64,000 nt of DNA from Euzebya tangerina (lineage in GTDB: Bacteria > Actinomycetota > Nitriliruptoria > Euzebyales > Euzebyaceae), in contig NZ_PPDK01000001.1 of NCBI RefSeq assembly GCF_003074135.1, positions 3,162,001 through 3,226,000 on the forward strand, written 5' to 3'. The notes beneath the pieces are model-generated. The model was not told where the DNA came from, searched no databases, and saw nothing but the letters and a program-made list of their open reading frames with translations. Within the stretch, counting starts at the first letter, position 1. Every line of letters starts with the position of its first letter. Positions 25,432 to 28,040 of this stretch are shown here, piece by piece. A program made the translations under genes and the position numbers.

Positions 25432-26298
25432 TCACTCGATGACGACGTCCTCAAGGCCCTCCTCCGCCTCGGGCCACTCCATCTCCCACGACTCCATCTC
25501 GTGGATCAGGATCCCCGATATCACCAGGTTGCGATACCACTTCCGGTCAGCTGGGACGACGAACCAGGGGGCGTGGTCGGCGTCCGTCCGCCTGATCATC
25601 TCGGTGAAGGCGGCCTGGTAGTCAACCCACCGCTTCCGCTCCGCGAGGTCGCCGATCGAGAACTTCCAGTGCTTCTCGGGGTCGTCCAGTCGCTCTTGGA
25701 GCCGCTCCGCCTGCTCGCCCTTGGACAGGTGCAGGAAGATCTTGATGATGTGGGTGCCCTCGTCGGCCAGCAGCCGCTCGAAGTCGGCGATGTGGCCGTA
25801 GCGTCTGGACCAGCGCGCTTGCGGGACAAGGTCGTGGACACGGACCACCAGCACGTCCTCGTAGTGCGACCGGTTGAAGATGGTGATCTGGCCGTCGGCT
25901 GGGACGTGGGCGTGAACCCGCCAGAGGTAGTCGCGGGCCAGTTCGGCCTCCGTCGGCCGCTTGAAGGATGCGACCTTGACGCCCTGCGGGTTGGTGCCGT
26001 CGAAGACGTGCCGGATGGTCGAGTCCTTGCCAGCGGTGTCGGTCGCCTGGAGCACGACGAGAAGCCGCCGCTCGCCCTCGGCGTACATCTTCTCCTGCAG
26101 TGCCTCGAGCCGCTCGTTCAGACGCCCGACCGCAACCTTCCCCAAGGCCTTGCCGTGGGGCCAGGCTGGTGTGCCACGGGTGTCCAGCTGCTCCAGATCG
26201 AGGGCGGCGGGGGCGCGGTGTGCCTGGGCAGCCTCGACGAGGTCGTGCAGCGCCTCCTCGGGGAGATCAGCCGGCGGTTCGGTGGTGGGCGTGCTCAT
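25432..26298 (-). CDS. ppk2: Polyphosphate kinase 2
   Basis: Phosphorylates nucleotides with polyphosphate. The 288-residue single-domain protein has Walker A QATDTAGKD (about 85-92), the lid/arginine region SFKRPTEAEL, FNRSHYEDVLVVRVH (Walker B-like) and DPEKHWKFS. The sequence around VFDGTNPQGVKV and the one-domain length suggest class I or III PPK2; class III enzymes can use AMP as well as ADP. No ppk1 is nearby. The ATG follows CATGAT by eight bases. It is convergent with the ABC exporter. Confidence 0.92.
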   Translation of the reverse strand: MSTPTTEPPADLPEEALHDLVEAAQAHRAPAALDLEQLDTRGTPAWPHGKALGKVAVGRLNERLEALQEKMYAEGERRLLVVLQATDTAGKDSTIRHVFDGTNPQGVKVASFKRPTEAELARDYLWRVHAHVPADGQITIFNRSHYEDVLVVRVHDLVPQARWSRRYGHIADFERLLADEGTHIIKIFLHLSKGEQAERLQERLDDPEKHWKFSIGDLAERKRWVDYQAAFTEMIRRTDADHAPWFVVPADRKWYRNLVISGILIHEMESWEMEWPEAEEGLEDVVIE

Positions 26299-26338: not shown

Positions 26339-27871
26339 CTACGGCTCGACGGGAGGGACGGCTCCCGGCAGGGGCGGGGCGGCCGGGTCGACCTGTGGGA
26401 TGGCCGCCGGGTGCAGGACCTCGCCCGGCTCGGGCGTGCGGAGGCCCAGGCGCACCGAGCAGACCGGCCAGGCAACCCAGCCCTGCAGATCCAGCAGCCG
26501 CTCGGCTCGACGGATCTGTTCCAGCGCAGGTGCTTCGTGCGGCAGTCCGGTGCCGCCGACCAGTTCCCAGCTCTCGACCGTGAACTGCAGGCCGCCGTAG
26601 AAGCCGTTGCCGCTGTTCATGCCCCAGTTCCCGGAGGCCTCGCACATCGACAGCGCCTGCCAGGTCGCCAAGGTCGGGTCAGTCGGATTGAGTGGCGGCG
26701 GTTCGGGCGTGGCCACGATGCCGGTCGGTTCCGGCTGGGCCAGGTCTGCTGGGGTACCGGCGGCGGCCCCCGCGGCCAACCCGGCCCGCAGCGTGGTCTC
26801 GGCAGGTGCCGGCTGGTCGACGATCGCCGTCGTGGCCAACCCGTCGCCGGACGTCACGTCAGACCCTGCTGAGTCCAGCATGACGACTCCCGCGGTCACG
26901 GTCAGGAGCGCGCCGATCGTCGCGACGACATGTCGTCCACCGACGCGTCCGGCCAAGGCAGCCAGCGTGGCCAGCACCGCCTCGCCGGCTCGCTTCGTCC
27001 GCCCCCGGCCACGCCGACGGGGTGTCTGACGAGCGACGGTCTGAGCGGGTCGGGCTGCAGGAGTGGGGGAGAGGAGCCGCTTGTCCGGGGTGCGGTCCGG
27101 GAGGGAGACCAGTGGGCCCGCGGGTCGAGGACCCACCGGGGTCAGGTCCTGGGGGGCTCGCACGGGCTCGCGGTCCGGGATGTCGAGGTCGGGGAACAGC
27201 TCCTCCTGAGCCGGTGGTCGAGCCGTTGCCACATCACCCGCGACGGCAGGCTCCGCTGGGCCATCGCCGTTTCTGACCGGTGCGGCATCGGCGTCCGGGG
27301 GTCGGGTGACGGGCGGCTTCCAGCGCGGGGAGGGATCGTCGGGCGACGGCTGTGGCTGCTGCTGCTCGCGACGCCACGCCGGCATCAGGACGTCGTCGGA
27401 GGTGTGACCACCGGCCGGGTTACGACCGGCCTTGTCCGTTCGGGGATGCGCGGTCGTGGTGATGTTGACGGCGGCACGACGTGGTCTCGGCTTGTGCCGA
27501 TCCCGACGACCGGGACCACCAGCCGGTTTGTCGCTGACTGTCCGATGCGAGGCCGCTTCGGCGCGCCAACGATCGCGCAGGGCCAGCTTGCCGGCGCGCA
27601 GTGAGCGCCGGGTCTCCTTGCACTCCCCACAGGTCATCGAGTGATCGACCGCGTCGGCCGAGAACGTCATCAGACCATCCAGCTGGTCCGGGCACGGCGA
27701 GCACTCACTGAGCGCGGCGCGAAGGCGTGCACGCGCGACGCCCAGGCGGACCTGGCTGGCCGCCATGTCCAGCTCCTTGGAGATCCGCAGGGCGTCCCAG
27801 CCGGCGCCGTCGTGGAGCAGCCCGATCGCCTCGGTCCGGTCCATCTGCCGGAAGACGTCCCGCACGGTCAT
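26339..27871 (-). CDS. Membrane Rpf-domain protein fused to an N-terminal sigma4-like HTH and zinc motif
   Basis: A 510-residue protein with an unusual layout. Residues about 10-57 (DRTEAIGLLHDGAGWDALR, then ELDMAASQVRLGVARARLR) resemble sigma-factor region 4, a DNA-binding helix-turn-helix. Next come Cys57, Cys60 and an H-x3-C-x2-C set (His77, Cys81, Cys84) like the zinc motif of anti-sigma factors. A long Pro/Arg-rich linker ends RRRGRGRTKR before one helix (about 315-333). The outside part ends in an Rpf domain (about 404-475): catalytic Glu411 in SMCEASGNWG, NGFYGGLQF and WVAWPVC, with Cys410/Cys471 as the likely disulfide. Rpf domains cleave peptidoglycan during resuscitation. The ATG was preferred to a TTG at 27940; the start is uncertain. 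Confidence 0.85.
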   Translation of the reverse strand: MTVRDVFRQMDRTEAIGLLHDGAGWDALRISKELDMAASQVRLGVARARLRAALSECSPCPDQLDGLMTFSADAVDHSMTCGECKETRRSLRAGKLALRDRWRAEAASHRTVSDKPAGGPGRRDRHKPRPRRAAVNITTTAHPRTDKAGRNPAGGHTSDDVLMPAWRREQQQPQPSPDDPSPRWKPPVTRPPDADAAPVRNGDGPAEPAVAGDVATARPPAQEELFPDLDIPDREPVRAPQDLTPVGPRPAGPLVSLPDRTPDKRLLSPTPAARPAQTVARQTPRRRGRGRTKRAGEAVLATLAALAGRVGGRHVVATIGALLTVTAGVVMLDSAGSDVTSGDGLATTAIVDQPAPAETTLRAGLAAGAAAGTPADLAQPEPTGIVATPEPPPLNPTDPTLATWQALSMCEASGNWGMNSGNGFYGGLQFTVESWELVGGTGLPHEAPALEQIRRAERLLDLQGWVAWPVCSVRLGLRTPEPGEVLHPAAIPQVDPAAPPLPGAVPPVEP

Positions 27872-28040
27872 GTCATCGCCAGATCGACGCACGCGCCCAT
27901 GACGGGCAAGTGCGTGGGCAACGTCGAGCGTCGTGGACAACTGAGGGAGGCGGATGTGGAGTCAGGGCGTGAGGTTCAACTATGCCTGTCGTGTGTGACA
28001 TCCCGCTCGCCCATTGGTGCAGGTCAGCGGGCGCTGCCTG

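Follow-up and report, generated by a model that had tools for sequence, protein, structure and literature searches.

An Rpf ectodomain joined through a predicted membrane helix to a sigma region-4-type and anti-sigma-type zinc module in Euzebya

A stretch of 64,000 nucleotides from Euzebya tangerina (contig NZ_PPDK01000001.1, positions 3,162,001 to 3,226,000; hereafter "the window") contains a gene whose predicted product would link the cell wall to a module of the transcription machinery. In a single chain it carries a sigma region-4-type helix-turn-helix (HTH), a part resembling the zinc-binding anti-sigma (ZAS) domain, one membrane helix, and a resuscitation-promoting factor (Rpf) domain outside the cell. 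Among the genomes searched, this layout is confined to one genus. Sequence comparisons indicate that the protein most likely descends from a one-piece extracytoplasmic function (ECF) sigma/anti-sigma fusion that lost sigma region 2 and gained an Rpf ectodomain. We tentatively read it as a membrane-tethered regulator, made from such a fusion, that would sense peptidoglycan through its Rpf domain, and we hold that reading with a little less than even confidence.

The reading frame is real, although it begins earlier than was thought. It lies on the minus strand at 26339-27940 and encodes 533 residues. The same uninterrupted frame occurs in four genomes of the genus, which makes it scarcely credible that two genes were joined by a sequencing or frame error. 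The first-pass annotation placed the start at the ATG at 27871, and this is 23 codons late. In the gene's frame, the first start codon after the upstream stop is the TTG at 27940; the three same-genus orthologues start with TTG or GTG no more than one residue from the matching place, and much of the sequence that the ATG skips is common to all three. Because the orthologue starts match there and the skipped stretch is shared, we took this TTG as the start. Residues are numbered in the 533-residue form throughout, so residue n of the first-pass annotation is n+23.

For the outer part, Pfam gave a match to PF06737 at E=6e-25 on the whole protein (88.1 bits, with a curated cut-off of 27). The best solved relative is RpfE (4cge, E=1.7e-20), and RpfB and RpfC are also among the solved relatives listed. 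The Glu and Cys pair of the Rpf family align at Glu434, Cys433, and Cys494, so the part had been correctly recognized as an Rpf domain with its catalytic residues. Only one 19-residue hydrophobic peak above 1.5 occurs in the chain, at 337-355; the orthologues in genomes G002 and G003 have one each, and that in G001 has two. Before this helix there are 36 Lys/Arg versus 24 Asp/Glu, and after it 1 versus 9. Since the chain is basic before the helix and acidic after it, the N-terminus should lie inside and the Rpf domain outside, in agreement with the single membrane helix originally proposed. Two further Rpf proteins are encoded in the same genome, both without the sigma region-4 (sigma4) and ZAS N-terminus.

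The N-terminal part is not visible to family models applied to one sequence. Given the window protein by itself, Pfam detected no sigma family even with the threshold relaxed to E=10, and Pfam and NCBIfam on the whole protein returned Rpf models only; detection of sigma4 and ZAS therefore needed alignments. A profile of six N-termini (A1) was set against PF08281 (sigma region-4) stretches from this genome, of which the 25 best were used, and hhalign gave a score of 29.9 (E=1.3e-5), as against 11.8 for the best of 150 column shuffles and 2.6 for the reversed profile. In the wider family (A2), 3 of 12 members match Sigma70_r4_2, with a best E of 1.7e-4. The siblings without an Rpf domain, taken alone (A3), scored 11.0 against the PF08281 set and were not aligned in register. 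Searches of PDB with the N-terminus were weak, both by sequence alone (a TPR protein at E 0.018 and a sigma factor at 0.14) and with profiles (SigJ twice, at best E values of 0.0057 and 0.022), and a search against phage sequences gave no match.

An AlphaFold2 model of the N-terminal part, built from five sequences, has a mean pLDDT of 79.5, with blocks of 78-93 over residues 31-80 and helices at 35-45, 50-57, and 61-79. When 199 chains were realigned and ranked, five of the first six fold neighbors were sigma factors or their region 4 (SigL4, SigR4, SigH twice, and SigW) at Z 7.2-7.6, values that can mean no more than a common arrangement, as is so for any Z below 8 (below 13 for helical models). 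The remaining row of the six is a chain of an RNA-guided transcription complex. The HTH of region-4 type that had been placed at residues 33-80 (10-57 in the former numbering) thus finds its structural match in a list of top neighbors that are mostly sigma4, and its profile score exceeds that of every shuffle.

The recognition helices were chosen by eye, apart from those of the genome's PF08281 set, where 22 of 25 were found by pattern. The four Rpf orthologues have a net helix charge of +3 to +4, the 22 PF08281 helices range from +1 to +6, and nine siblings without Rpf range from -3 to -1. With these charges, DNA binding is possible for the window copy and less likely for the siblings.

Behind the HTH stands the zinc motif. 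C83, H100, C104, and C107 are invariant in all six aligned proteins of the Rpf type. In relatives at the level of the order, the first ligand is His rather than Cys. In the three aligned genus siblings that lack Rpf, the His-Cys-Cys motif is gone, and one of them has lost the first ligand as well. That the ligands change as a set suggests a real metal site. To the anti-sigma-type motif noticed at the outset (H-x3-C-x2-C), C83 adds a presumed fourth ligand, and both halves of the N-terminus together match sigma-ZAS fusions at E=1e-8.

The window protein was matched in 53 of 61 genomes, mostly via its Rpf domain. From these we recovered 116 distinct Rpf-containing frames, and in 110 of these the frame is open for 120 residues or more ahead of the domain; the N-terminus with H-x3-C-x2-C is present in five, all from the same genus, and the other 111 distinct frames examined in the class are without it. 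With the main copy of the fourth genus genome added, the count is 6 of 117, made up of four orthologues and two copies that lack the catalytic Glu. In a sample of the phylum, none of the best 30 Rpf loci (19 outside the class) out of a greater number of Rpf matches has the N-terminus, and none of 23 loci matching the N-terminal profile has an Rpf domain. The full layout is kept in all four genus genomes, near SDR and/or PPK2 genes; the N-terminal part, far from being absent in all homologues, is there in four orthologues.

The Glu-less second copies (L058 in G002 and L057 in G003) are shorter; they keep the zinc ligands and likewise have a hydrophobic helix. Their Rpf domain reads CASGG instead of CESSG, so that the catalytic Glu is gone, and YGGLQF is lost; Pfam still recognizes the domain in L057 (E=8e-14). 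Retention of such a copy fits a sensor rather than an enzyme, and the second copy is probably a pseudo-enzyme sensor.

The relatives of the N-terminus outside the class look, for the most part, like sigma factors. Over 396 genomes of the phylum, the A2 profile found matches in 38; the 11 strong ones (E 4.3e-29 or better) are all inside the class. The best match outside it, L068 (E=2e-7), has sigma region 2 (Pfam r2, 9e-17), region 4 (r4_2, 2e-12), and the zinc motif in one chain, and the match is collinear across sigma4 and the zinc part with the motif aligned. Most of the 14 matching loci outside the class that were read resemble plain or SigJ-like sigma factors. A search with L068 over 296 genomes gave more one-piece sigma/zinc fusions, and from 30 loci we took the 12 whose matches ran through the zinc part. 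Against the sigma4-ZAS alignment of these 12, A1 matches end to end over 125 columns (probability 95%, E=1e-8, score 46.8); the four Rpf orthologues alone score 38.0, with 12.6 for the best of 150 shuffles. In each of the 12 fusions, H-x3-C-x2-C is followed by a hydrophobic stretch (peak 1.5-2.0), which is likely to be a membrane helix. Five were scanned by Pfam: all have both sigma regions and none reaches zf-HC2 at E=0.1, so for the fusions the label "ZAS" rests on motif and position.

A remnant of the missing region may persist nearer to home. A scan of the genome contigs with the genus profile found no relative, and a rescan with the order-level profile gave five loci; the relatives named in that scan belong to Euzebyales, Egibacteraceae, and Nitriliruptorales. 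Order-level relatives have a shortened, degenerate, region-2-like stretch (YAWWLTGD..., by eye) ahead of sigma4. Sixteen sibling loci, some of them truncated at contig ends, yielded no Rpf domain (L040, L041, and L043 lie near such ends, and absence of the domain is not proven there). It is this remnant, together with the collinearity of the N-terminus with the sigma4-ZAS tail, that makes descent from a fusion most likely in our view.

Two groups of these relatives deserve a record of their own. L282-L295 are one-piece sigma2-sigma4-zinc-motif proteins in other Actinomycetota, where one genome (G176) gave ten matches with long open frames. L091:3356-4909 (in the present genome, contig C1, at about 872 kb), L092, and L093 are proteins with a sigma2 remnant, sigma4, a former ZAS, and a membrane part; they have lost the His-Cys-Cys zinc motif, carry an ectodomain of unassigned type, and have relatives in three genus genomes.

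What might such a protein do? As a tethered regulator, it would bind and perhaps trim peptidoglycan with the Rpf domain in the wall. That contact would alter the ZAS/sigma4 module, either through a shift in conformation or through cutting within the membrane, and the module, with its basic helix, could then act on transcription at -35-like sites or hand over a sigma factor. The candidate first target is the gene's own promoter region with its two-part element, described below. A site-2 protease family is present in the genome; it is present in 14 of 14 control genomes too, and hence supports the cutting step weakly. We can also imagine a fuller version, although we consider it rather unlikely: the Rpf domain would cut and read peptidoglycan in one act, the sigma4-ZAS module, tethered or cut loose, would be a transcription factor on its own promoter through the two-part element and perhaps on a resuscitation regulon, and the Glu-less twin would serve as a pure sensor in some species.

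Selection was measured as pairwise Nei-Gojobori omega over 45-48 codons for sigma4 and for ZAS and 81 for Rpf. In G002/G003, the only close pair, purifying selection acts on all three parts, with omega of 0.03 for sigma4, 0.02 for ZAS, and 0.04 for Rpf. The first linker has 0.28, the membrane region 0.45, and the first 33 codons 0.56, at a synonymous divergence (dS) of only 0.07. In the three deeper pairs, omega of Rpf is 0.19-0.55.

Several results weigh against the regulator reading and should be set beside this evidence. In those deeper pairs, omega of sigma4 is 0.60-0.75 (dS 0.5-1.0) and exceeds that of ZAS (0.20-0.37); the faster change of sigma4 implies no constant DNA target. The Glu-less copies keep little of the basic helix (net charge 0 to +1). 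With Foldseek alone, no neighbor reached significance (best E 0.58), and the model that was searched is built on only five sequences. No Sigma70_r2 match appeared at E=10, whether in the 510-residue form or in residues 1-134. The ZAS half alone compares weakly with zf-HC2 (hhalign 14.9; best of 150 shuffles 12.6) in a set of 27 class proteins, three of 30 loci having been dropped where the script found no clean motif. Neither the window copy nor the five fusion proteins scanned reach zf-HC2 by Pfam; for residues 1-134 of the window copy the match has E=8.1 and is off-register. Modeled by itself, the ZAS half gave no PDB match with Z of at least 2 among the four chains compared, which is uninformative either way. 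Finally, no sigma region-2 or region-4 family match occurs anywhere in the window, so no cognate sigma gene lies close by.

The absence of region 2 also limits what the protein can be. Only about 33 residues stand ahead of the HTH in the Rpf-type proteins, and because region 2 is missing we do not expect the protein to work as a sigma factor by itself. This loss is one of the features that would suit the reverse direction of control, a fairly unlikely alternative in which the protein works chiefly as a membrane-anchored muralytic enzyme, with a sigma-derived part that anchors, dimerizes, or docks, and so sets where or when Rpf works. The catalytic Glu and Cys pair are kept, as an enzyme would require; sigma4 is under modest constraint in the deeper pairs; and the window offers no sigma family match. 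Such a scheme leaves unaccounted for that all four orthologues have kept their zinc ligands and the basic charge of the recognition helix, and that two genomes retain a Glu-less copy. Also in favor of this alternative is L026 (in G018), a further Rpf protein in the class, which the N-terminal profile does not match and in which a long Pro-rich stretch precedes the hydrophobic helix. The L026 frame is open from base 1; a LysM-like stretch was recognized in it by eye, a ARALVRERVTQLRR-type motif is repeated, and the protein is possibly a second kind of Rpf protein with a cytoplasmic domain.

An unlikely, yet not far-fetched, role is that of an anti-sigma factor in trans: the ZAS part would hold an unlinked ECF sigma factor, with the built-in sigma4 as a decoy on ZAS until Rpf senses a change in the wall. 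Partners are plentiful, with 38 region-2 matches in the genome; the ZAS motif and the collinear sigma4-ZAS homology would suit such a role; and PhyR, in which sigma mimicry is known, has structures among the fold neighbors of the N-terminal model. Against this stand the lack of a sigma family match in the window, the divergence of the ZAS half from zf-HC2 proteins, and the position of the presumed first ligand, since Cys83 lies 17 residues before H100 and the classical ZAS has its first ligand farther from the motif His. We also considered a split sigma factor with a separate region-2 protein. No partner was found: among the 38 region-2 matches, four without a listed PF08281 partner were inspected, and all four seem, by eye, to bear a region-4-like C-terminus of their own.

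We regard it as quite improbable that the N-terminus, left over from an ancient sigma/anti-sigma fusion, now serves as no more than a cytoplasmic tail: the layout is limited to one genus and sibling proteins have lost the zinc motif, but omega is low in the close pair, and the zinc ligands are invariant although over the N-terminal part the orthologues share only 50-57% identity with the window copy.

In the known ECF48, ECF52, and ECF53 proteins, a sigma factor continues into a ZAS-type zinc finger and membrane helices (PMC8999054); SCO4117 also has a Pro-rich stretch and a carbohydrate-binding domain (PMC5826349), and for some members of this type glycosyl hydrolase or carbohydrate-binding domains are predicted (PMC10766802). 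The window protein shares with them sigma4 followed by ZAS and a membrane helix in one chain, an extracellular domain beyond the helix and, with SCO4117, the Pro-rich stretch. It differs in having no sigma region 2 and in bearing an Rpf ectodomain rather than a carbohydrate-binding or plant-polysaccharide hydrolase domain. Our 12 yardstick sigma-ZAS proteins resemble these groups and carry no ECF group assignment.

RsgI6, an anti-sigma factor of Clostridium thermocellum, offers a second likeness. Its GH10 ectodomain has very low activity and still binds its polymer (PMC4711584), a condition paralleled by our Glu-less second copy. Both proteins have a sigma-related cytoplasmic part (sigma-binding in RsgI6), a membrane span, and an enzyme-family ectodomain proposed as a sensor; unlike our protein, RsgI6 has a separate cognate sigma gene, and its ligands are xylan and cellulose, not peptidoglycan. 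The cytoplasmic domain of RsgI6 we take to belong to another family than that of the window protein.

With RpfA-E, the LysM-type Rpf proteins, and RpfB with G5/DUF348, the window protein has its catalytic domain in common, including the Glu and the two Cys. Described Rpf proteins have LysM, G5/DUF348, or M23 partners and are generally predicted to be secreted (PMC1084345, PMC11356341, PMC4255298); a sigma-type cytoplasmic part is not mentioned for them in the portions of these sources available to us. For signaling from peptidoglycan fragments to the cytoplasm, the PASTA kinases PrkC/PknB have been suggested (PMC11356341); unlike a kinase with PASTA repeats, the present protein has an enzyme domain and a cytoplasmic module in one chain. 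In the open-access literature, as far as its text was accessible, we found neither an Rpf fused with a sigma or anti-sigma module nor an Rpf in Euzebya. The first-pass annotation knew of no described system with this layout, which is true in part: the ECF48/52/53 fusions and RsgI6 are precedents for the general layout, and what appears new is the Rpf ectodomain and the missing region 2, neither of which we found in print.

Upstream of the gene lies a conserved element in two parts. It reads CCTGCN4ATGGGCGAG-N19/20-GGCATNNT at 27979-28023, and CCTGC-N4-ATGGGCGAG-N19/20-GGCAT-NN-T precedes the gene in all four orthologues, including those in G002 and G003, where the upstream neighbor gene differs. 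The four orthologous sites score 20 of 20, against 17 for the runner-up in 1.27 Mb of collected sequence (overlapping loci counted twice); please note that the element was first spotted by eye and that the consensus was made from the same four sites. Across five genomes, the exact core pattern occurs once each in G000, G002, and G003, always at this gene; it is absent from G001 (one base off) and from the order-level genome G005, and the backward control gave 0. Three of the upstream regions have a 9-base word in common, whereas 2000 dimer shuffles gave 8 at best. The element looks like a promoter or operator. No RNA element in the window reached an Rfam gathering score, and the one snoRNA match in 501 bases around the start, which lies below threshold (E 0.021) and within SDR coding sequence, was taken as chance.

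An SDR dehydrogenase gene lies upstream, and a PPK2 gene downstream with an ABC transporter beyond. PPK2, on the same strand in the window, is possibly co-transcribed with the Rpf-sigma4-ZAS gene. Its adjacency is kept in three of the four genus genomes; no PPK2 is among the genes listed in 18 kb around the G001 copy. Neighbors in the other three genus genomes were read by eye only. Coordinates of all features are collected in Table 1.

Table 1. Parts of the Rpf-sigma4-ZAS gene and its surroundings, in window coordinates
Feature	Position	Strand	Basis
Complete gene, 533 residues, TTG start, TAG stop	26339..27940	minus	Open reading frame and orthologue alignment
Sigma region-4-type helix-turn-helix, residues 32-77	27710..27847	minus	Profile comparison, structure model, fold neighbors
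Recognition helix of the HTH, residues 59-76 (chosen by eye), net charge +4	27713..27766	minus	
ZAS-like zinc domain, residues 80-125	27566..27703	minus	Motif and profile comparison
Zinc motif H100-x3-C104-x2-C107	27620..27643	minus	Alignment
Cys83, presumed fourth zinc ligand; His here in order-level relatives	27692..27694	minus	Alignment
Cytoplasmic linker, residues 127-336, basic, Pro-rich (17%)	26933..27562	minus	Composition
Single transmembrane helix, residues 337-355; RRRGRGRTKR ahead of it at 308-317	26876..26932	minus	Hydrophobicity
Extracellular linker, residues 356-425, acidic, Pro-rich (16%)	26666..26875	minus	Composition
Rpf (lysozyme-like) domain, residues 426-501	26438..26665	minus	PF06737, solved relatives
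Glu434, aligns with the catalytic Glu of the Rpf family	26639..26641	minus	Alignment
Conserved two-part upstream element, promoter/operator candidate	27979..28023	minus	Comparison of four orthologues
Neighboring PPK2 polyphosphate kinase gene, 40 bp downstream	25432..26298	minus	Gene order

Rpf enzymes might rouse dormant actinobacteria either by loosening the wall or by releasing fragments that signal. Here, an Rpf domain is continuous with a cytoplasmic sigma-type module, and the roles of "wall enzyme" and "signal receptor" should be separable by point mutations in one protein. The comparisons also suggest an evolutionary route in which a complete sigma/anti-sigma fusion lost its region 2 and was remade into a receptor. 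If the regulator reading is true, the state of the wall would speak directly to the genes.
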